Shown: positions 19,875-30,306 of the stretch, one piece after another
Numbering within the stretch: position 1 is the stretch's first letter
Layout: each line of letters begins with the position of its first letter
From: Streptomyces sp. NBC_01235
Lineage (GTDB): Bacteria > Actinomycetota > Actinomycetes > Streptomycetales > Streptomycetaceae
NCBI RefSeq assembly: GCF_035989285.1
Contig: NZ_CP108513.1
Span: 6,572,001-6,636,000 of the forward strand
Direction: 5' to 3'
Length of the DNA: 64,000 bases
Made by a program: the position numbers and the translations under genes
The notes under the pieces: generated by a model
What the model was told of the DNA's origin: nothing
Database searches by the model: none
What the model saw: only the letters and a program-made list of their open reading frames with translations

Positions 19875-20018
19875 AGAAGTGATGGCTGGCCACCCCAGCA
19901 GGGTGTTGTGGTGTGGCTCACGATATGCCGAGTGTGTGAGCGGCTTTGTGTCGGCCAAGGAGCGAAGCCCAGTACAGCTCAAAAGGCGCTGGGCTCTGAT
20001 GAGGCAGTCTGACACTGG

Positions 20019-23000
20019 TCATGCGGTTGACGAGCCCGGCGTAAGGCGGAGGCAGAAGAGGCCCCCCTCCGTGACGAGCCCCACTACCCCCTCACTGATG
20101 ATTGTGATCCTTCGGATCGTCACTCCGAGATGCACTTGGCACAGCAGGCGTTCTGAGCCTGCCTCCACGAGCAAGACGGTGCCGTCGCTCGTGCACACGA
20201 TTGCGGCGCCGCGGTCTCCAACTGTTGTGAGTGCGAGGTGGGTGACCTGTTGGGTCTGCGGCAGCTTCCAACTCCACTCAAGCGAATCGTCCAGGATGGA
20301 ATAGACGCTGAGCCAGCCGGCTTGATTTACACATCCGGCAACTGGTGATCCGTTCCACAATGCCAGGTCGTGGGCGTACGACCAGTCGTAAGGATTTGCT
20401 GCCAGAGGAACGCCAGGATAATCGGCGGAGTCGATGTGGACGCTTGCGAGCTGATCGAAGTTCGGTAATGTGAAGATTCTGATGGCCTGCTCTTTGATAT
20501 CCACTACAGAGAGCAGCGCGTTCCCTTCCATGGTCAGTGCCCGGAGGCTCAGGCACCGGGAGGCAGCTATGTGTCCCTCAGGGACACCGCGGAGATTCCA
20601 GGCAGTGAGCCCGGCGGAGGATAGGCCGATGACTAGAGGGCGTCCGTCGAATGAGGTTATTTGCATCTCTGTGACTGGCTTAAGGAAGCCACCACTCAGG
20701 CGGACGCTGCGGGATGAATGCCCCTCGAAAACCCTCACCCAATGCAGAGCCGGCCAATGTCGAAGCCATCGGTATGCGACGATCGGCGCTCCTGGCGCAC
20801 CGCAGTAGGACATGTCCTGCAGACGCATCTCTTCCAGGATTCCGCAATCGAAGACTGAGGTCACCTGCCCAGAGGTTGGATCGACCAGACGGGGTGGCTT
20901 GGTCGAGTCGCACCGCGCCAGGACGGGTTTACCAGAGATTTCTCCCACGACCAGGCGGGTGTACCTGGCGTCGACAGCATCGGATCGGCGTTCCCTCGGC
21001 CCTTCTTCCATTTCCAAAGGCAGGACCCTGACCTGGACCGAACTACCCTCCGTGCGCCACGTCAGGAGGTCTGCGCGCATTGGGTCGGAGGGAATCACCG
21101 TGAGCTGTGCTGATGTGGACAACTCGGTTTCGAGCCAGTTGGTCTCTTTGCCAGCGGCATCCGTCACCCGGACGAATGAGGACTGGGCCCACACACGGTA
21201 TGAGCCACCATCCGTCATGATCAGCGCTGAAGGCCCCATACCGCGACGGTAAAACCACTCCGTCACTTTCCCCCGCCGGATGACTTCCTGAGCGCGCCCG
21301 GTGATCCGGGGTCGACCCTCCGACGACACGAGGATGTGACCTCGACGTATGGCCAGTGCCGCCACGTTCCTGCCCCTCAAGCGGTAATACCGCTCGTCGC
21401 AGACCCTCCATCCCTGCCCCGGATCCACGGTCCAGGTTGCAAGCTCCGCACGGCCCGACAACCGGGGCGCTGTCCGTCCCACCCCTACAGTCGCCGCCAC
21501 GACCAAGCGGCCGTCAGCAACCTGCATAGCCAGGTGCTGTGGGTGGCGTAGGCCGGAGACCAGGACAGTAGCGGAGTCAGTCGGACGGCGTACCAGATTG
21601 GGGGTTCGCATCTGAGAGGTAAGTCGGGCCAGGACCGAGCCCGTGCTTGCGTCTATCAGTTGTACCAACCCGTCGGTTGACATCAGTCCGATCACGCAAG
21701 TGCCCTCGACTTCAGAGAGCGCGCACTGTGCTGCTCTGGTTTTTACGGGCAAACCCAGTCGGCGCCGTGTGCCGACGTCGAACACCTCGACAGTGCTGTT
21801 CCATTCATTGCCGTGGCCGGAGTGGACGAGTAGCCAGGGTGCGCGCGACTCATCGCAGGACGCGAGTGCCAGGACACGGGATGAGGCCGGGGGAGGCAGC
21901 TGCCCAAGGTGCACTCCCGTGTCGAAGTCCCACAGTTCGAGCTGGCCCAACGCTTGGGCTGTGGCCAGTACCTTCGTTCCGGAGACGTCCAAGACCTCGG
22001 CGCCCCTCAAGGGGGTAGAGAAGGCGCCGATGGCCCGGAAGGGGTAGGGACGCTTCGGTACCTCCGCCCACAACGTGTCCCAGGGGAGATCAGGGAAGCG
22101 TAGGCGTACTGCCTCGGCAAGGGCATGTGCGCCGGACTGAACTGCGGCGAGACGCAGTTGGGCTGCTGGCGAAGTAACGGCGTCTTCCACCAGCACGGGC
22201 GAACAGCGCTCGTACGCGGCGCGGGCGGCCTGCGCCTCGGCACTTCGGACATGTCGTAGCGCCCGGTGCAGAGCCGACGGCTCGGCTACTAGCAAGTAGG
22301 TCGGATCGAGGACAAGGTCGTCAAGCAGCGCATCGCCGGCGGCATGGCTGGCCAGATGTGCACGTACGTACGGATCCGCGTCGGACCATGCGTATGACTG
22401 CGTCCCAGGGACGACCGGCACGGTCGTCAATAGCGCAGCAGCGATGTGTTTGGCCGCTCCAGGCCCGGTGGCGGCCCGAAGTTCCTCTGCGTATGACTCG
22501 TGATAGAGGCGGTAGACGGAGCGTGCCTGACCATCCGGGCCGATGTCCTGGTCTTCGACGATGTGTGCACTCGCCGAGTCCAGGATCCAGCGGATGTCTT
22601 GGCCCGTGACCTCGTCGCCAGTGAAGGCGGAGGCGGTTGCGCGCCAGACATCGCCCGCGGGGAGGCCGGAACCCTCGGCGTGGGCCAGGGCTGTCAGAAG
22701 GGCACGGCCCTGGGCCTCACCAGCCTGCAACTGCTCGTGCAGTGCCCAGCGGAATGCGGGGCCCGCTGAACCATTCGGGAGCGCGCTAAGCCCTGGTAGT
22801 TCCTCCTCCCAGCCGGGAATGCTTGTGTCGACCGGCCGTGCGCGGTGGGCGAGTGGTCGGGCGATAAGGCGGGCGACCAGGTAGTTTCGGTTGGCACGTG
22901 ACGAGATGACGCAGGCCACCGGTTCCGCCGTGGCGGCGTTGTAGATGCCGACGCTGCCGGGGCCGTCGGGAGCAAGGAGTAGCCGACGCGCGTATTCTTC

Positions 23001-23672
23001 GATGTCCCGCTCTCCGGTCCAGCGTGGCTCATCAAGGTCCAGGCAGGCGAACTCGCTGCCAAGGGCATCTCGCATGTGTGGTCGGGCGCCCACGAGTAGG
23101 CGGACGCAGGGAAGTTGGGAGAGCGGACCAAGCAGGGCTGCAGCAATGCGGTGGGGTTCGGCGTCGCCGGTTGCCGTCCCAGCCTCGTCCAGGGCATCGA
23201 CGACGACGACCAGGGGTTCGGTTCGGCTGGCGAGCGCGGCAATGAGCCGTTCCGGATCGGTCTCGGCCAGGCCAGCTGCGTCGGCGATGCCTGCGGTGAC
23301 GTCTTCGAGGAGCTTGTGCCGCGCGTGTACGGCTGCGTGCACGCGCTGCTGGGGCGGGATTGCATTGTGATCGATGTCCGGCAGGGTTGCCCGGAGCAAG
23401 GGATCAGCGAGGAGTATCAGGCGTCCGAGGAGCGAGGACTTGCCGACTCCGCCTCGCCCGGTCACCATCGAGCAGCGGCCGAGCTGTCGGGACCGGCTGT
23501 CCAGCCAGTCGGACAGTTCAGTCAGCGCTGTTAAACGTCCGGTGAAGTAGGAGCCTGTGGTCCCTGTGCAGGCGTCCGTACCGCGGCCACGGGGTTCGAA
23601 GTGGGTGAGCAGTTCTTCGCGGCGCCGGCGTCCTTCCGGGCTGACCCAAGTACGTTGTTCGGCTAGGTCCAT
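20019..23672 (-). CDS. STAND/NACHT-like ATPase with C-terminal beta-propeller (split from caspase domain)
   Basis: Fragment of 1217 aa. Residues 72-80 hold the P-loop GRGGVGKSS. Walker B is LVVVVDALDEAG (154-165). A helical region follows, and from about residue 550 repeated WD-like blades such as LELWDFDTG, VEVFDVGTRRR, VQLIDASTGS and LTAWNLRG run to the end. The ATG at 23672 has no RBS. Upstream, the open frame continues into the IS end; joined across the IS it is continuous with the caspase gene. STAND ATPases sense a trigger with the repeat region, oligomerise and activate a fused or linked effector. As it stands it has lost its effector and native start. Base composition is lower in GC than the neighbours, fitting acquisition. 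Confidence 0.88.
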   Translation of the reverse strand: MDLAEQRTWVSPEGRRRREELLTHFEPRGRGTDACTGTTGSYFTGRLTALTELSDWLDSRSRQLGRCSMVTGRGGVGKSSLLGRLILLADPLLRATLPDIDHNAIPPQQRVHAAVHARHKLLEDVTAGIADAAGLAETDPERLIAALASRTEPLVVVVDALDEAGTATGDAEPHRIAAALLGPLSQLPCVRLLVGARPHMRDALGSEFACLDLDEPRWTGERDIEEYARRLLLAPDGPGSVGIYNAATAEPVACVISSRANRNYLVARLIARPLAHRARPVDTSIPGWEEELPGLSALPNGSAGPAFRWALHEQLQAGEAQGRALLTALAHAEGSGLPAGDVWRATASAFTGDEVTGQDIRWILDSASAHIVEDQDIGPDGQARSVYRLYHESYAEELRAATGPGAAKHIAAALLTTVPVVPGTQSYAWSDADPYVRAHLASHAAGDALLDDLVLDPTYLLVAEPSALHRALRHVRSAEAQAARAAYERCSPVLVEDAVTSPAAQLRLAAVQSGAHALAEAVRLRFPDLPWDTLWAEVPKRPYPFRAIGAFSTPLRGAEVLDVSGTKVLATAQALGQLELWDFDTGVHLGQLPPPASSRVLALASCDESRAPWLLVHSGHGNEWNSTVEVFDVGTRRRLGLPVKTRAAQCALSEVEGTCVIGLMSTDGLVQLIDASTGSVLARLTSQMRTPNLVRRPTDSATVLVSGLRHPQHLAMQVADGRLVVAATVGVGRTAPRLSGRAELATWTVDPGQGWRVCDERYYRLRGRNVAALAIRRGHILVSSEGRPRITGRAQEVIRRGKVTEWFYRRGMGPSALIMTDGGSYRVWAQSSFVRVTDAAGKETNWLETELSTSAQLTVIPSDPMRADLLTWRTEGSSVQVRVLPLEMEEGPRERRSDAVDARYTRLVVGEISGKPVLARCDSTKPPRLVDPTSGQVTSVFDCGILEEMRLQDMSYCGAPGAPIVAYRWLRHWPALHWVRVFEGHSSRSVRLSGGFLKPVTEMQITSFDGRPLVIGLSSAGLTAWNLRGVPEGHIAASRCLSLRALTMEGNALLSVVDIKEQAIRIFTLPNFDQLASVHIDSADYPGVPLAANPYDWSYAHDLALWNGSPVAGCVNQAGWLSVYSILDDSLEWSWKLPQTQQVTHLALTTVGDRGAAIVCTSDGTVLLVEAGSERLLCQVHLGVTIRRITIISEGVVGLVTEGGLFCLRLTPGSSTA

Positions 23673-23710
23673 GCCCTTGTCCGGTACATCCGGGGTGTAG
23701 CGGGGGTTAG

Positions 23711-25383
23711 CCTCGCGCTTTCGCGAGTGGGTCTGTCCGAGTCTTGATCAAATAAATGGAGAGTGCTGCTGACCTGCAACGATGGGACTTGTCGAGGGTC
23801 CTGTCACTGCAAGGAAAGAAGCACTCTCCAGGTGAAGAAGAGTAGCGGGTCGTACCCGCGTGTCCGTGTCGAGGGCGGCGGCCGTGGAGTTGTTGCCCAG
23901 GCCGGGGCCGTGCTGCTGGTCGAGACGGTCCGCAGGTCCGGCCTGGACACCGCGATATCCGCGGCGCTGGCGCCGTGGCGCAAGCGGCGGGCCGTGCACG
24001 ATCCGGGCAAGATCCTGCTGGATGTGGCGCTGGCCGTCGCACTCGGCGGTGACTGTCTGGCCGACGTCGGCATGCTGCGGGCCGAGCCGGCGGTGTTCGG
24101 CCCGGTGGCCTCCGATCCGACCGTCTCCCGCCTCGTCGACGCGCTCGCCGCGTCCGGCCCGAAAGCTCTTGCAGCGATCCGCGGCGCGCGTTCCGAAGTA
24201 CGTCAGCGAGTCTGGGAGTTGGCCGGGGCAAGCAGTCCGGCCGCCGACGGCCAGGTGATCGTGGACATCGACGGCGTGCTGGTCCTCGCCCACTCCGAGA
24301 AACAAGACGCCACCGCGACCTGGAAGAAGACCTTCGGCCATCACCCGCTTGTCGCGTTCGTCGACCACGGCCCAGCCGGGTCCGGAGAGCCGGTGGCGGC
24401 CCTGCTGCGGCCCGGCAACGCGGGCTCCAACACCGCCGCCGATCACATCGAGACCGCCCAACTCGCCCTGGCCCAGCTGCCCAAACGCCTGCGGCGGGGA
24501 CGGCAGACGCTGATCCGCACCGACTCCGGCGGCGGCACCCACGCCTTCCTCGACTGGCTCTCCCGGCGCGGCCGGTGGCTGTCGTATTCCGTCGGAATGA
24601 CCATCACCGACGCCATCCACCAGGCCGTCCTGAAGATCCCGAAGAAGGCATGGACACCGGCCTACGACGCGGGCGGCACCGAACGGCCCGGAGCCTGGGT
24701 CGCAGAGATCACCGACATGCCCGACCTGAGCACCTGGCCGAAGGGCATGCGGCTGATCGTCCGCAAGGAACGCCCGCACCCCGGGGCACAGTTGCGCTTC
24801 ACCGACCTCGACGGACTGCGGCTCACCTGCTTCGCGACCAACACCAAAGGCGGCCAGCTCGCCGACCTCGAACTGCGTCACCGCAGGCGGGCCCGCTGCG
24901 AGGACCGCATCCGCGGCGCCCGCGCCACCGGCCTGCGCAATCTGCCCCTGCACGACACGGCACAAAACCGGATCTGGCTGGAGATCGTCTCCCTCGCACT
25001 CGACCTCCTCGCCTGGATGCCGATGCTCGCACTGAGCGGCGATGCCCGCCGCTGGGAGCCCAAGAAGCTCCGGCTGCGGCTGTTCTCCGCCCCCGCGCAG
25101 CTCGTGAACACCGGCCGCCGCCGCTGGCTCCGCCTGCCCACCCGATGGCCCTGGACCGCCGTCATCAGCCACGCGATCGTCAGGCTCCACGCCCTGCCGA
25201 ACCCCGGCTGACCAGCCACATCGACCGTCCCGACGACCCGCACCACCACACCGGCGAAGTGGAACCCGGCGCCCATCCGACGCGAAAGCCGGACCCTCGC
25301 CCTGCCCCAACCCCGAAAAGACCGCACCACACAAACGCGGAGTCCCCGTCAGCGAACCGACGAGGACTCATGAACGATCGAGG
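23711..25383 (+). mobile_element. IS1380-family insertion sequence, 1673 bp
   Basis: The ends are imperfect 18-bp inverted repeats: CCTCGCGCTTTCGCGAGT on the left and, read inwards on the other strand, CCTCGATCGTTCATGAGT on the right (13 of 18 match). They are flanked by the direct repeat TTAG at 23707-23710 and 25384-25387. A 4-bp target duplication and about 1.7 kb length fit the IS1380 family. It carries a single intact transposase gene. It interrupts the caspase-STAND gene. Confidence 0.92.
23832..25211 (+). CDS. IS1380-family transposase
   Basis: Protein of 459 aa from the GTG at 23832; an upstream ATG (23763) lies in the IS terminus and is less likely. DDE-type catalytic segments are VIVDIDGVLVLAHSEKQDA and LIRTDSGGGTHAFLDWL. 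The C-terminal third has RIRGARATGLRNLPLHD and NRIWLEIVSLALDLLAW, usual for this family. The frame is complete, so the IS may still be active. Confidence 0.92.
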   Translation: MKKSSGSYPRVRVEGGGRGVVAQAGAVLLVETVRRSGLDTAISAALAPWRKRRAVHDPGKILLDVALAVALGGDCLADVGMLRAEPAVFGPVASDPTVSRLVDALAASGPKALAAIRGARSEVRQRVWELAGASSPAADGQVIVDIDGVLVLAHSEKQDATATWKKTFGHHPLVAFVDHGPAGSGEPVAALLRPGNAGSNTAADHIETAQLALAQLPKRLRRGRQTLIRTDSGGGTHAFLDWLSRRGRWLSYSVGMTITDAIHQAVLKIPKKAWTPAYDAGGTERPGAWVAEITDMPDLSTWPKGMRLIVRKERPHPGAQLRFTDLDGLRLTCFATNTKGGQLADLELRHRRRARCEDRIRGARATGLRNLPLHDTAQNRIWLEIVSLALDLLAWMPMLALSGDARRWEPKKLRLRLFSAPAQLVNTGRRRWLRLPTRWPWTAVISHAIVRLHALPNPG

Positions 25384-26117
25384 TTAGGGATGAAGGGGAA
25401 GCCTTCGCCACTCGGCAGAGTTCCCAAAGCGGCATGCTGATACGGGCTGTGCTCGGCGAGGACTTCGTTGACCCGGTCTACGACTTGCTCCAGATAGAGC
25501 TTGGGCTGGCGGTGCCCACCCAGGTCTGGGTCGCTGATCGCCGTCCGGAGGGCGTACGTAAAGGCGCCATCTTCGGCCAGTTCATGGGAGCGGGCGGCCG
25601 CGATCACGGAGAACGCAGTGAGTCGGTGTTCGTCGGCGGCGCGGGTCGTGCTGAGCTGGACACCGAGACCCCTGGCCAGGGCGCGTGCAGCGTCGACGCT
25701 GCCCTGCCCGGCGTAACAGGTATCGATGATCAGCAGAAGCCGCTGAATCCCGCTCTCGGTGATGATCCGGACTAAATCCTCGGTGGCCAGGGCGGTGCCG
25801 GCGAGGCGGTCACTACGACTGTCCCGGCACATCAGGTAGTGGCGTTCGTGATCACGGTCGCCGTGGCCGCTGTAGTAGAGGATCAGAGCGTCCTCTGCTC
25901 GGTCCTCAGCTCCGGCCCAGTTGGCGAGCCCTGCGCGGAAGCCCTCACATGTTTTGTCCAAAAGCTGGTGCCCGGTTTCGTAGCCGAGCAATCCGAAAAC
26001 TCTCCTGACGACATCGATATCCGCGGGCACTTGTGGGAGCTCTGGATGATGGTCGTAACGTGCTGTGCCGCCGACGAGTAGCGTACGTCGTACTGCGCCT
26101 GGTCTCACTTGGGTCAC
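25368..26117 (-). CDS. Caspase-like protease domain (peptidase C14), truncated by IS insertion
   Basis: Fragment of 249 aa. The catalytic His85 lies in YYSGHGD and Cys134 in IIDTCYAGQGS, with the N-terminal RTLLVGGTARYDHHPEL typical of bacterial caspase homologues. The GTG start overlaps the stop of the hydrolase gene (GTGA, 26114-26117). The last five codons (LDRS, stop) come from the IS end. Without the IS the frame runs on through NPRYTPDVPDKG into the STAND gene, making one protein of 1473 aa. The caspase is the probable effector, cutting cellular proteins when the ATPase fires. Confidence 0.9.
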   Translation of the reverse strand: MTQVRPGAVRRTLLVGGTARYDHHPELPQVPADIDVVRRVFGLLGYETGHQLLDKTCEGFRAGLANWAGAEDRAEDALILYYSGHGDRDHERHYLMCRDSRSDRLAGTALATEDLVRIITESGIQRLLLIIDTCYAGQGSVDAARALARGLGVQLSTTRAADEHRLTAFSVIAAARSHELAEDGAFTYALRTAISDPDLGGHRQPKLYLEQVVDRVNEVLAEHSPYQHAALGTLPSGEGFPFIPNLDRS

Positions 26118-26992
26118 GGTGCCATCCGCAGGCCCTCGGAGATTGCTTCACCTGTCTCTGCGGCGGTGAGGTGGGATTCGATGGCGTGGGCCTGCCAGCC
26201 GTTGTCGATGAGGACATCGCGGACGACGTTCTCGCCGTCGCTGAAGAGCGGGCCTAGACGCTTGGCGAGGGCGACGACGTCATGTCGGTCGCACAGATTG
26301 GTCCAGGCTCTTACGCTGCCCGGCCAACTTCCATTGCCTAAGAGTGGCTCAGGCAACAAGCGATCGAAGACGAGGTTCGGGATGCCCAAGGGCGAGCCGA
26401 GCGTGACGAAAGTGTGGACTGGCCACTCTGGATGGGCGCACAGCGCTTCGTAAGAGACGATTGAGCCGAGAGAGTGGCCGACGATCACGCGGGTGTCGGC
26501 TTTGACCGCGGCGGTGATGTCAGCCTGTACGCGCTCGCGGACCTCGGGTGTCGTGAGATAGAGGCGGAGCTGCTTGAGCATACCGATGAGGAAGCGGTCG
26601 GCAGCACGTGCAAAGAAGCGGGAGCGACTGAGCGCGTACAGGGCACGCTGCACAGTCTGTGGCGTCGTCGCCTTACTGGTTCCCGTAGCCGCCGGTGGTG
26701 GTACCCGGTCCGGCTCGACGCGATGTGCCTCCGCCCACCAGCGGATGAGTAATTCGATCTCGAACGGATCGGTCACATCCCGATGCGTGTAGGCCAGGTC
26801 GCCCTTTGTTGGTGCGGTACCCGGCGAGCGGAACAGGTGGCCGTAGAAGGCGACGTGGACGCTGTCCGGCTTCACCTCCGTGACCCCGGCGCGGTTCAGT
26901 CCGTCCAGGAGCGCAGCAGAGATCGGGCCCTGCAGGGAGTTGGCGCCTGAGTACTGCTTTCCTATGCCGTGCACCACAACGATCGTGGACAT
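26114..26992 (-). CDS. Alpha/beta-hydrolase (lipase-like) of the caspase-STAND operon
   Basis: Protein of 292 aa. VVVHGIGKQ at residues 5-13 is the oxyanion-side motif. GHSLG at 172-176 gives nucleophile Ser174. DRHDVVA (about 235-241) is placed for the acid, and His near 274 can complete the triad. No signal peptide is seen, so it acts in the cytoplasm. It overlaps the caspase gene by four bases, so both were made together. It could be a second effector or a processing partner; its substrate is unknown. Confidence 0.85.
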   Translation of the reverse strand: MSTIVVVHGIGKQYSGANSLQGPISAALLDGLNRAGVTEVKPDSVHVAFYGHLFRSPGTAPTKGDLAYTHRDVTDPFEIELLIRWWAEAHRVEPDRVPPPAATGTSKATTPQTVQRALYALSRSRFFARAADRFLIGMLKQLRLYLTTPEVRERVQADITAAVKADTRVIVGHSLGSIVSYEALCAHPEWPVHTFVTLGSPLGIPNLVFDRLLPEPLLGNGSWPGSVRAWTNLCDRHDVVALAKRLGPLFSDGENVVRDVLIDNGWQAHAIESHLTAAETGEAISEGLRMAP

Positions 26993-27166
26993 CGATTCCC
27001 CCGCGTTCCGTTTTCCGTGATCGTACTCGTGCGTGGCGGCGGAGGATGGAGCTCAGCGGTATGTAGGTTCCGGATGCCAGCCGAGAGGCTGAACCCTTAA
27101 TGGCTAGCGACGCGAGGGCGCGGGCCCTGGTGTCGTTCACGCGACGGCGACGAACCTGAGGGCTGA

Positions 27167-27991
27167 TCAAGCCAGTTCTGCAGCCAGAGTGCGGAGCGCT
27201 GGGACGAGTTCGGGATGGTCCCCGCGTGATGCCGACTGCAGTAGTTCCGTGATGACGATGATCTGGGCGACGCGCCCCGCCTCCGTCTTGAGGACGGAAA
27301 AGGTGTCCCGGACGCACTGGGTGAAGCGGGGGTTGAGCAGCGAGTAGGCCAGCAGCGTGGCTGCGTCGTAACCGGCCGGCGCTTGACCGAAACCCTCCCA
27401 GTCAAGGAGATACGGGGTGGTGCTGGTCAGGTTGGCGGTGTGCATATCGCCGTGGGCTGTCGTCCAGTCCGTGATCCGGGGGCCTGGCATGTCGAGGAAG
27501 CGTGGGACGCTGCGGTCCACCCACTCCTGCCGTACGGCCAGGCGGCCCGTGGGGACTCTGCTCACGTACTCCAGGTCGGTGCGGAGCGATTCCCACCAGG
27601 CGGCGGAAGGATTAGGGTCCGTACGGAGGACGGGGCTGGGGGAGGAGGCAGGTTCGGTGACGTACTGATGCAGTTCCGCCAGGTAGGCGTAGCTGCCTGA
27701 TCTTGCTTCCGTGGTCGAGTAGAGCAGGGGCTTGTGGATGTGTCCGTCGAAGATGGCGGCGGCCTGCTGGTTCCCCTCCCAGATCTTGCCCGCCGCTTTG
27801 TCCTCTGGCGTGGTGAGCAGCCTCAGCCAGCAGGCTCCCCGGTCCGTGTGCTGGACGCGGCTGCTGAGGGTGCGGCCGTGCCAGCCCCAGACTTCTGGAC
27901 CGGCGATCGTGGTGCGCAGCGTCTGTGCGCACTGCGCGAACGCCTGACGCATCCGGTGCTGGTCGGCAGGGTCAGGCGGCGGCGAGTACAT
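27167..27991 (-). CDS. Aminoglycoside-phosphotransferase-fold kinase
   Basis: Protein of 274 aa. The catalytic loop is HGDMHTAN (about residues 181-188) and the metal-binding segment is LLDWEGFG, as in APH/choline kinase-fold enzymes. These phosphorylate small molecules or peptides; the context is not a resistance cassette. The start overlaps the end of the aldo/keto reductase gene by 20 bp, so it is the last gene of the operon that begins at 31637. Confidence 0.85.
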   Translation of the reverse strand: MYSPPPDPADQHRMRQAFAQCAQTLRTTIAGPEVWGWHGRTLSSRVQHTDRGACWLRLLTTPEDKAAGKIWEGNQQAAAIFDGHIHKPLLYSTTEARSGSYAYLAELHQYVTEPASSPSPVLRTDPNPSAAWWESLRTDLEYVSRVPTGRLAVRQEWVDRSVPRFLDMPGPRITDWTTAHGDMHTANLTSTTPYLLDWEGFGQAPAGYDAATLLAYSLLNPRFTQCVRDTFSVLKTEAGRVAQIIVITELLQSASRGDHPELVPALRTLAAELA

Positions 27992-28880
27992 CCAGCACCT
28001 TTCGCAGCGTTGCGACCGGGACAGCCAGCCTCTGGAGGGCGGCTTCGGCTTCGGCCCAGTGTGCCGGCGTGGAGGCGGAGAGCAGAATCCGTGTCACCCC
28101 GGGGCATGAGGCGGCCGCCAGCAGGCATGCCTGCGGGACGGTGAGGTTCGGGTTCAGGAGTGTGGTGAGTTCGCGCGTCGCCAGTTGGGGCAGTTCGCCG
28201 CCGAACAGCGGGGCCGAGGCGAACACCTGCCATCCAAGGCCGGCTGCCTGAGCGATGGGTCCCATTCCGCCCAGGGCTTGGGCCAAGGCGGTTGCGGTGA
28301 CGAGGGATACGGGCAGTTGGATCGCGCGCAGGTGGTGCTGCTCCGTGCCGGCGGCTTCACCGGCCAGCCGGTGCAATGCGGGGATGTTCAGCCTGCCGGT
28401 CTCGAAGCCGTCCCAGGAGGCGACGCCGTATGCCGCCAGGGTTCCGGCCGCCACTTCTCCTTCGAGCGCCGTGAAGGCATTGAGCAGGGCTTGGTGTGGG
28501 TCACCGGCTGTGTGCTCGGGGTTGTGGGCGAAGACTAGGTCGAGGCGGTCGCGGCCGAGTTCGGTGCGGTTGCGGGCGCATTGCCAGCGGACGTACGAGG
28601 TGCTCAGGCAGTGCCCGCGCCTTGCCTCGCCTGCGGTCAGGACGCCGGCGGAAACGGCGTCCTTGGCCGCCTGGTCGGTGAGGAATCCGACCTTGGTGGA
28701 GAGCGGAATCGGGTGCGTGGCGAGAGCCGGCGCGAGCAGCGACTGGGCTTGCCCTTCCAGGTAGTTGGGTGCTGTGTCGATCCATGCGGTCGTGGGGTCG
28801 GCGGCCGTGCGGGTGACGATGTCGTTCAGGGCGGAGGGGCGGGTGCGGTAGGTGCCCAGCCCGAGAGCCGCGGTCGTCAT
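27972..28880 (-). CDS. Aldo/keto reductase
   Basis: Protein of 302 aa. It starts TTAALGLGTYRTRPSALND. IDTAPNYLEGQ carries the catalytic Asp/Tyr region and LSTKVGFLTDQ the Lys. DRLDLVFAHNPEH matches the family LDLVFLHNPE pattern. It uses NAD(P)H to reduce an aldehyde or ketone; the substrate is unknown. It overlaps the upstream oxygenase gene by 4 bp and the downstream kinase gene by 20 bp. Confidence 0.85.
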   Translation of the reverse strand: MTTAALGLGTYRTRPSALNDIVTRTAADPTTAWIDTAPNYLEGQAQSLLAPALATHPIPLSTKVGFLTDQAAKDAVSAGVLTAGEARRGHCLSTSYVRWQCARNRTELGRDRLDLVFAHNPEHTAGDPHQALLNAFTALEGEVAAGTLAAYGVASWDGFETGRLNIPALHRLAGEAAGTEQHHLRAIQLPVSLVTATALAQALGGMGPIAQAAGLGWQVFASAPLFGGELPQLATRELTTLLNPNLTVPQACLLAAASCPGVTRILLSASTPAHWAEAEAALQRLAVPVATLRKVLDVLAAA

Positions 28881-30070
28881 CGCTCGGTTCCTTCCACCGT
28901 GACCGCTTGGCCTTCCACCAGCTCGGAGACGACGGCAACGACATCCTCGACCGAGACGCCGGTTGCCACGGCCAGTTCACCGAGGGGCACTGCACAGGGT
29001 GCGGCGGACATCAGCCTCTGGAGCAGTGGCAGGGCCTCGGCAGCCATTTCCCACTCGTTTTCGCAGGCCCGGAAGATTACCCCGTCCCCGTTGGGCGCGG
29101 ACGACAGGTGTGTCCGGGCCGTGATCAGCCTGATGTGGAGGTCAGGGTCGGTCGGGATGCGGGTGATGTGAGGGAGGCTCGGCCGCAGGCGGGTGAGGTC
29201 GGTGGTGTCCCGCGTCGCCGTGTACCGGGCGATCAGAGCCGGGTCTTCCAGGGCTGTGGTGACTTCCTTGCGCAGCCGTTCCAGGTAGACGACCTGCTGT
29301 GCGGCGTTCGCGTGTACGGGCAGGTCCTCGCGCAGGACGTCGTGGCGGCGCAGGTCGTCGGCGAGCCAGGACAGGAGCTGGGCGCCGGTGGTGGTCTGGA
29401 TGCCGAAGGTGAGGTGCAGGGAGTGCTCGCCCTCGGAGGCGGCCACCGAGTGCCACCAGCCGCGCGGGAGGTGTAGCACGTCCCCAGGATGCAGGACCAG
29501 TTCCGCGACCGGCTCCTCCGGCGGAGGCTCGGGCTCGGCAGTGTCCTTGTACATGGGGGCGGTGCGGGTGGGGCCGTACAGCTTCCAGCGTTTGGCGCCG
29601 TCGATCTGGATGACGACGACGTCGTGGTCGTCCCAGTGCACGCCGAAGCCCTCACGGGCGGTGAAGGAGGCGTACAGGTTGGCCTGCACTCCGGTGCGCA
29701 GCCACTGCTCCAGCTCCATGGCCGCCCGGCCGACGGGTGGGTGGAGTTCGTCGACGGCGTCGATGACCAGGGAGGCGCCCTCGACGAGCCGAGCGTGCAG
29801 CTCCGCGGGGTGCAGGCGCTGCCAGACGGTGTGCCGACGGGTGGTGACGGGAGCGGTGTAGCGGTGGGCGGGCAGCATCTCGCCGTCCACCGACAGACGC
29901 AGCCGGGGCGGCTCCAGGCGGTGGGTCGCCAGGATGGTGTTCACGTCGTCCCAGGTGATCAGCTCACCCGGGTTCGGGAGGGCGGCAGGGATGTGGCGGT
30001 AGCGGCGGTGGAGCACCTGGGCCAGGAACTCGTCCTGGCCCAGGTGAGCCGCCAGATTCAGCGGCGACAA
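28877..30070 (-). CDS. JmjC/ROXA-like cupin oxygenase
   Basis: Protein of 397 aa from the TTG at 30070, chosen because AGGAGG lies 7-12 bases upstream and the frame begins LSPLNLAAHLGQDEF. The JmjC core shows FGVHWDDHDVVVIQIDGAKR (His-x-Asp iron ligands), WKLYGPTR, and LHPGDVLHLPRGWWHSV with the distal His. The C-terminus is a winged-helix-like region (VPLGELAVATGVSVEDV). This architecture is that of 2-oxoglutarate ribosomal-protein hydroxylases (YcfD/ROXA). The gene directly follows a 48-aa peptide gene, which could be its substrate. Confidence 0.85.
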   Translation of the reverse strand: MSPLNLAAHLGQDEFLAQVLHRRYRHIPAALPNPGELITWDDVNTILATHRLEPPRLRLSVDGEMLPAHRYTAPVTTRRHTVWQRLHPAELHARLVEGASLVIDAVDELHPPVGRAAMELEQWLRTGVQANLYASFTAREGFGVHWDDHDVVVIQIDGAKRWKLYGPTRTAPMYKDTAEPEPPPEEPVAELVLHPGDVLHLPRGWWHSVAASEGEHSLHLTFGIQTTTGAQLLSWLADDLRRHDVLREDLPVHANAAQQVVYLERLRKEVTTALEDPALIARYTATRDTTDLTRLRPSLPHITRIPTDPDLHIRLITARTHLSSAPNGDGVIFRACENEWEMAAEALPLLQRLMSAAPCAVPLGELAVATGVSVEDVVAVVSELVEGQAVTVEGTER

Positions 30071-30086
30071 CGCTTCTCCTCCTGGA

Positions 30087-30233
30087 TCAGTCGTTGCCGT
30101 CGGTACGGCCGGTGCTGCCGCCGTCGGACGGGGTGACGCCCCGCTCGCGGGCGGCCTGGATGCGACGACGTGCCTTGACCAGTCCGGCCTGGGCCGGCCC
30201 GGCCGTCGGGCCGGTGGCGGTGTTGTTCGGCAT
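30087..30233 (-). CDS. 48-aa peptide, possible modification substrate
   Basis: Short gene with a perfect AGGAGG (30238-30243) five bases before the ATG. The peptide has an N-terminal half rich in T/A/G, a basic helix-like middle (GLVKARRRIQAARERG), and a Ser/Gly/Asp-rich tail (TPSDGGSTGRTDGND). Its stop is 16 bases before the start of the JmjC oxygenase, with that gene's RBS in between, so the two are co-translated. Third positions are nearly all G/C. Leader plus small polar tail resembles a RiPP precursor, but no known class is recognised. Confidence 0.6.
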   Translation of the reverse strand: MPNNTATGPTAGPAQAGLVKARRRIQAARERGVTPSDGGSTGRTDGND

Positions 30234-30306
30234 TGCTCCTCCTGGGGTTTGGGATGAAACGGCATTGCGGACCCGCCCCGGACGGTGCTTGACCTGTCCA
30301 AGGGCT

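Follow-up and report, generated by a model that had tools for sequence, protein, structure and literature searches.

Are a caspase open reading frame and a NACHT-type ATPase open reading frame that lie on either side of an insertion sequence two genes, or the halves of one, and what became of the protein if they are halves? The question is posed by a locus of Streptomyces sp. NBC_01235, within a window of 64,000 nucleotides that was analysed as a whole. Annotation of the genome would enter the caspase and the NACHT protein of this locus as two solitary proteins, although they are pieces of a single gene. The reading that we favour, with a probability of about 0.85, is that an IS1380-family element inserted into a CTAA/TTAG site split the gene for a 1473-residue protein made of caspase, linker, NACHT STAND ATPase and propellers, and that this copy is inactive.

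The insertion sequence and its target

The separating element and its target are delimited as follows:

23711..25383, plus strand: IS1380-family insertion sequence, 1673 bp (transposase match, genome copies and plasmid relatives)
23711..23728, plus strand: left terminal inverted repeat, 13 of 18 positions matching the right end
25366..25383, minus strand: right terminal inverted repeat, imperfect, 13 of 18 positions matching the left end
23707..23710: left copy of the target-site duplication TTAG
25384..25387: right copy of the target-site duplication TTAG
23763..25211, plus strand: transposase, longest frame 482 aa, the true start of which may lie further in

The assignment to IS1380 made in the initial annotation was borne out by the transposase, which matched the IS1380 equivalog NF033539 (E 2.5e-100, 336 bits, cut-off 180) and PF13701 (E 8.7e-88). 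The features of membership are all present, namely a DDE transposase, terminal inverted repeats and a 4-bp target duplication, the last being a habit of the family. The annotation had also placed a 1673-bp IS between TTAG at 23707-23710 and at 25384-25387, and this holds: the genome (G000; one contig, C1, of 11,090,044 bases) contains five full copies of the element, and a perfect 4-bp duplication flanks all five, TTAG/CTAA at four and CTAT at one. The window's copy is identical to one of the others, and the remaining three share one single-base difference. Plasmid relatives of the element were found in 58 records, 55 of them from Streptomyces. Of the 20 of these records that were listed, eight have a match running precisely from base 1 to base 1673, which fixes the ends of the element independently. 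Fragments of element relatives, with 78-85% identity, lie at 151050-151938, 10679830-10680620 and 5023511-5023820 of C1.

The near-identity of the copies, 0-1 base apart, makes a very recent move possible, and in this respect it would suit an explanation of the insertion as a laboratory-culture event or an assembly artefact, foreign to the natural state of the strain. An artefact, however, is hard to reconcile with a single-contig genome, a perfect duplication and four other full copies with their own duplications elsewhere, and this explanation is judged highly improbable.

The choice of site has a simple background. CTAA/TTAG and CTAT/ATAG words are scarce in DNA of ~70% GC; the whole interrupted gene holds three CTAA/TTAG and eight CTAT/ATAG sites, and one such site falls in the linker. 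Because the linker happens to hold a target word, a break that leaves both domains whole is weak evidence for anything. An insertion aimed by design at the domain boundary was also considered and set aside as unneeded, given the target words present in the gene.

One ancestral frame for caspase, ATPase and propellers

On the minus strand, the two flanks of the element and the domains that they encode are the following:

25384..26117, minus strand: 5' part of the interrupted gene, with GTG start and caspase domain, through one target-site copy (PF00656; frame and length)
20019..23706, minus strand: 3' part of the interrupted gene, with linker, STAND ATPase, helical region, propellers and stop
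25368..26117, minus strand: caspase ORF as now read, 249 aa
20019..23672, minus strand: STAND ORF, 1217 aa, ATG start
25446..26081, minus strand: caspase domain, residues 13-224, with invariant His85 and Cys134 (PF00656, E 2.9e-14)
22986..23558, minus strand: NACHT/nSTAND1 ATPase domain, residues 39-229 of the downstream ORF (PF20703 and PF05729 above cut-off)
20037..22091, minus strand: beta-propeller region of double WD40-like size, residues ~528-1212 of the downstream ORF (structure model)

When the 734-base 5' flank is joined to the 3688-base 3' flank, leaving out the second TTAG, 4422 bases result, which read in a single frame as 1473 codons plus stop; flank lengths and reading thus reproduce what the initial annotation had calculated. 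The 3' flank encodes NPRYTPDVPDKG-M, stop-free and in the frame of the STAND ORF, and the element supplies the last four residues (LDRS) and the stop of the present caspase ORF.

The same annotation had proposed that the two annotated genes are halves of one protein and had named intact one-chain homologues as the confirmation. Such homologues were found by a search with the STAND half alone, not the joined protein, which retrieved 216 relatives, 120 of them listed including the window's own: both halves were matched in one chain by 115 of the other 119. In the eight closest listed relatives (P0002-P0009, 59-86% over the STAND half) caspase and STAND portions are spaced by 11 residues, precisely the length encoded by the window's 3' flank before its ATG. 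The four exceptions among the 119, P0038, P0064, P0071 and P0103 (1096-1311 aa), have no caspase match; P0013 (S. davaonensis), as annotated, misses most of the caspase. A scan of genome contigs with a nine-sequence alignment gave four loci, two of which are close relatives. Two loci preserve the uninterrupted site: that of Streptomyces sp. MMG1533 (L052) has CTAA at the same codons, and that of NRRL S-244 (L051) lacks CTAA.

These data bear directly on whether the caspase and STAND ORFs are naturally separate genes, with the element merely lying between them. Both halves are indeed open with possible starts, and a search with the caspase half (proteins of ~137-436 aa) returned 14 other proteins, of which P0122, P0125, P0126, P0133 and P0135 are on contigs longer than 10 kb; these five may represent either free-standing caspases or further broken genes. 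Among the 14, however, P0128 is a fragment (71% over 46%), two are named partial and seven are on contigs shorter than 5 kb, and where a separate caspase spans 80% or more of the query its identity does not exceed 64%, against up to 89% in the caspase part of the fusion relatives. With nearly all listed STAND relatives fused and the 11-residue gap constant in the nearest eight, natural separateness retains hardly any probability, and two separate ancestral genes are ruled out by the intact fusions in close relatives. That the caspase ORF and the STAND ORF are halves of one protein is supported by these comparisons.

As to the domains, invariance in the caspase was judged on 30 sequences (the window's and 29 chosen relatives), and His85 and Cys134 are presumably the catalytic pair. 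The ATPase domain scored 31.1 bits against PF20703 (cut-off 27.1) and 29.3 bits against PF05729 (cut-off 26.7). For the C-terminal region no Pfam match supporting a propeller was found, so the label given to it earlier finds no backing in Pfam and stands on the structure model, in which the region is confidently modelled (pLDDT 88.4) as a beta-propeller, in agreement with Foldseek and VIA matches; Apaf-1 entries 5juy and 3sfz are among the Foldseek matches. All features of a metacaspase-NACHT-WD40 protein are thereby present: a caspase with His and Cys, a NACHT/STAND ATPase and a WD40-type propeller. In relatives the three occur in one chain, 115 of the 119 listed matching both halves in this way; for the models, 57 of these 119 were chosen by hand. 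In the window the chain is split.

The description as two genes was incomplete, as it overlooked a third gene, overlapping the caspase gene, that belongs to the operon:

26114..26992, minus strand: alpha/beta-hydrolase gene, 292 aa, first in the operon, lipase-like fold

It lies upstream and overlaps the caspase gene by 4 nt (GTGA). The hydrolase matched Pfam PGAP1 weakly, below cut-off; Ser174, Asp238 and His269 are invariant when the window's protein is aligned with 70 hand-chosen of 120 listed relatives, and its model (pLDDT 90.5) finds its best folds in lysosomal phospholipase A2 and LCAT. At the limits used, sequence search gave no solved relative for hydrolase, caspase or fusion. As an observation apart, the hydrolase of Streptomyces sp. 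Edi2 (P0136) is 92% identical to the window's, compared with 89% for that of MMG1533. At the level of sequence, the insertion, its duplication, the single ancestral frame, the operon, the domains and the intact relatives can be taken as established.

Some features of the surroundings were also recorded. Third-position GC is 0.71 in the caspase-STAND gene, 0.77 in the hydrolase gene and 0.82-0.85 in the next three genes (window 20000-30300), and 0.86-0.97 in most genes further out; lower values near the operon are as in acquired DNA. At 27167-30301 a tight trio on the minus strand encodes an APH-like phosphotransferase, an aldo/keto reductase and a JmjC/cupin protein. Neither RNA families (gathering cut-off) nor tRNAs were detected in the window. 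Spread of the STAND half on plasmids was considered and rejected: tblastn against 72,556 plasmid records gave 37 records, all below 60% identity, and no record had a single place covering 80% of the STAND half.

Age and effect of the insertion

That the element copies are nearly identical points to a recent move, and the insertion is probably young. L051 and L052 are too distant to date it, because dS to L052 is ~0.31 for both gene parts. Changes confined to the window's lineage were counted with these two loci as comparison, keeping the gene pieces separate. For the STAND half the counts are 26 nonsynonymous and 73 synonymous, versus 59 and 104 in L052 (Fisher p 0.10), and for the hydrolase 7 and 20, versus 10 and 30. 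The caspase half shows 8 nonsynonymous and 5 synonymous changes, versus 8 and 26 in L052 (p 0.02, uncorrected and from small numbers), and at four positions, start codon excluded, the window departs from the residue common to all seven relatives compared. An old pseudogene is unsupported by the STAND half, with fewer amino-acid changes than L052, whereas the caspase half leans the other way; its changes hint that this half may have weakened before or after the insertion. The recent date given in the earlier statement has indirect support from the element copies and from a STAND half without excess changes; the caspase half does have a small excess.

Regarding expression, terminator-like stems were predicted within the element:

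25322..25340, minus strand: terminator-like stem inside the element's right end, on the broken gene's strand (consensus match only)
23822..23859, minus strand: two terminator-like stems inside the element's left end, on the broken gene's strand (consensus match only)

This weak scan found three stems against 0.8 expected (sd 1.0), and a search limited to the sigma-70 consensus found no promoter-like site in 23600-25450. Taken together, these two results make it probable that the STAND half is silent. Should it be transcribed, its ORF could be translated from an ATG of its own.

The proposed course of events is that insertion duplicated four bases, that the caspase chain would now end after four element-encoded residues, and that the STAND-propeller half would be cut off from its promoter and native start. 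In the intact system, the propellers would sense a trigger, the ATPase would then oligomerise as in Apaf-1, and the tethered caspases would activate one another by nearness; caspases and co-encoded lipase-like hydrolase, the latter as co-effector or substrate, would bring about death or arrest of the cell, probably as a defence against phage. The interrupted operon may still yield the hydrolase and a caspase domain without its tether, with no part left to sense or assemble. We infer that the cell has ceased to make the fused protein and that this copy is inactive.

Two other readings of the split gene have to be weighed at this point. In one, the split is tolerated or even used: the strain would make a free caspase domain and the hydrolase, and a STAND-propeller chain, if made separately, might still find the caspase. 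The break in the linker, with both domains whole, would fit it, as would the lack of relaxed constraint in the STAND half and the retention of His85 and Cys134 in the caspase. Nevertheless, a young insertion would leave the halves intact anyway, the linker position may be a coincidence given the other target words in the gene, the caspase half has an excess of amino-acid changes, and the absence of a promoter-like site in 23600-25450, together with terminator-like stems on that strand, speaks against expression of the second half, making this reading unlikely. In the other, the element acts as a reversible off-switch, scarless precise excision restoring the gene in some cells. The transposases of the IS1380 family are related to that of piggyBac, an element with scarless excision, and both gene halves are open. 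In the part available of one study, IS1380 served as piggyBac outgroup, and the CTAA/TTAG targets resemble the TTAA of piggyBac and its TTAG/CTAA variants (PMC10813416). However, this sequence carries no sign of excision, the literature titles and abstracts listed (3 in one case, 20 of 104 in another) included none on scarless excision of IS1380 elements, and an IS insertion can often be young and unspoiled yet not reversible, so that a switch appears very unlikely. Simple inactivation by the insertion is the reading retained.

The loss concerns one operon among several. Elsewhere in the genome, two operons of hydrolase and caspase-STAND genes have open, fused frames, one at 4422-9793 of C1:3226000-3242000 (L085), with a STAND half 42% and a hydrolase 62% identical to those of the window, and a second at 453-6088 of C1:9985000-9996000 (L091); the three operons account for three of the six PF00656 places in the genome. 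At least two intact paralogous operons are kept, and the interrupted one is one of at least three. The description of the system as switched off, itself an inference, would accordingly apply to one such operon only, two open fused paralogues remaining. A single NLR-like gene has been lost at this locus by a natural and probably recent event, and the strain retains at least two others.

The partner hydrolase and comparison with known systems

As a case of IS inactivation in a gene of known kind, the locus is real and ordinary and adds one member to that kind; the partner hydrolase is its interesting part. In a survey of 392 genomes of the genus there were 84 hydrolase matches; 78 have a caspase nearby, and at 72 of the 84 places the caspase is one fused to a STAND core. 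Conversely, a hydrolase was present at 25 of 33 caspase-bearing STAND loci (none seen in the fetched stretch at the other 8) versus one of 28 caspase-less ones (Fisher p 3.3e-9; the loci are related and p is uncorrected for descent). Counts per genome are lower bounds, as the STAND search scored two candidates per genome and the hydrolase search six; as three of the 63 matching STAND rows belong to a single broken gene (G119), the rows were counted as 61 places. Some of the loci examined had also gone into building the caspase and hydrolase profiles, so that very diverged caspases could be missed. At six of the 84 hydrolase places no caspase was seen in the fetched stretch: L199 lies at a contig end, in L152 the STAND gene is cut by the chosen stretch, and L171, L192, L194 and L202 show no caspase. 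Other operon relatives (L108, 3114-6062; L190, 6350-9290; L191; L193; L115, 6054-6886) are split over several frames, through decay or sequencing error. On these sequence associations, the hydrolase appears to accompany the caspase domain and not the STAND ATPase alone, which raises the question of why a lipase-like hydrolase goes with caspase-bearing STAND proteins and almost never with caspase-less ones.

A tentative answer, which we rate well below even odds, is that the intact operon is a two-gene bacterial apoptosome, in which a sensing, oligomerising caspase chain would be joined by a lipase-like hydrolase acting as executioner, either switched on by the caspase or supplying membrane-lipid damage. 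If the caspase acts on the hydrolase, this would be a further bacterial route from protease to membrane damage, beside the gasdermins; and if the apoptosome reading is true, the insertion would be a natural uncoupling of sensor from protease that leaves hydrolase and caspase domain whole. To our knowledge, no phage test of the caspase-STAND-propeller family exists. At E 0.01, PADLOC matched neither the STAND half nor the hydrolase, and its match to the caspase is weak. Among the titles and abstracts listed, with subscription papers and preprints mostly outside the search, no paper was found on a hydrolase paired with caspase-STAND-propeller proteins or on this locus.

The closest known counterparts are the caspase-NACHT-WD40 fusions described in 2012, whose architecture, in the portion of that paper available, is reported as widely distributed, with NACHT-bearing metacaspases in Actinobacteria among others (Asplund-Samuelsson et al., PMC3501461). 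The ancestral protein resembles them in domain order and in its single chain, and differs in that the gene is here split by an element and stands in an operon with a lipase-like hydrolase, a partner of which that portion makes no mention for this architecture.

Pairing of a caspase with a hydrolase has a precedent in the VMAP ternary conflict systems, where, according to the available part of the source, the caspase always occurs with a neighbouring alpha/beta-hydrolase, joint action is suggested, and the pairing is found mostly in multicellular bacteria and thought to serve in biological conflict (Kaur et al., 2020, PMC7159879). The window is alike in that an alpha/beta-hydrolase gene adjoins, and slightly overlaps, the caspase gene, and unlike in that the caspase of those systems is carried on the VMAP protein of MoxR-vWA systems, whereas in this operon its fusion partners are a NACHT/nSTAND1 ATPase and propellers. 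Pfam scans of 17 ORFs of the window showed no VMAP, MoxR or vWA partner, nor did Pfam match these families in ten neighbours of four hydrolase places elsewhere (three without STAND core and one without caspase match), a sample so small that it says little. EACC1-associated caspases, for which the same source, as far as available, mentions occasional fusion to STAND ATPases (Kaur et al., 2020, PMC7159879), offer a further comparison. The window's caspase is of a related type (NCBIfam NF047832, E 2.6e-22), but its 79.4 bits remain below the cut-off of 140, the gene directly upstream is the hydrolase, and the Pfam scans of 17 window ORFs gave no EACC1 match.

Finally, the succession of effector, STAND ATPase and sensor is that of bacterial NACHT and Avs anti-phage STAND proteins, as presented in the available parts of PMC10907252 and PMC13236601, although here the effector is a caspase, the sensor part is a propeller and the STAND half has no PADLOC match. 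A STAND ATPase followed by propellers also recalls the Apaf-1 apoptosome with caspase-9, a likeness of plan to which sequence search added no solved relative, and from which the ancestral protein differs in carrying its caspase in the same chain.
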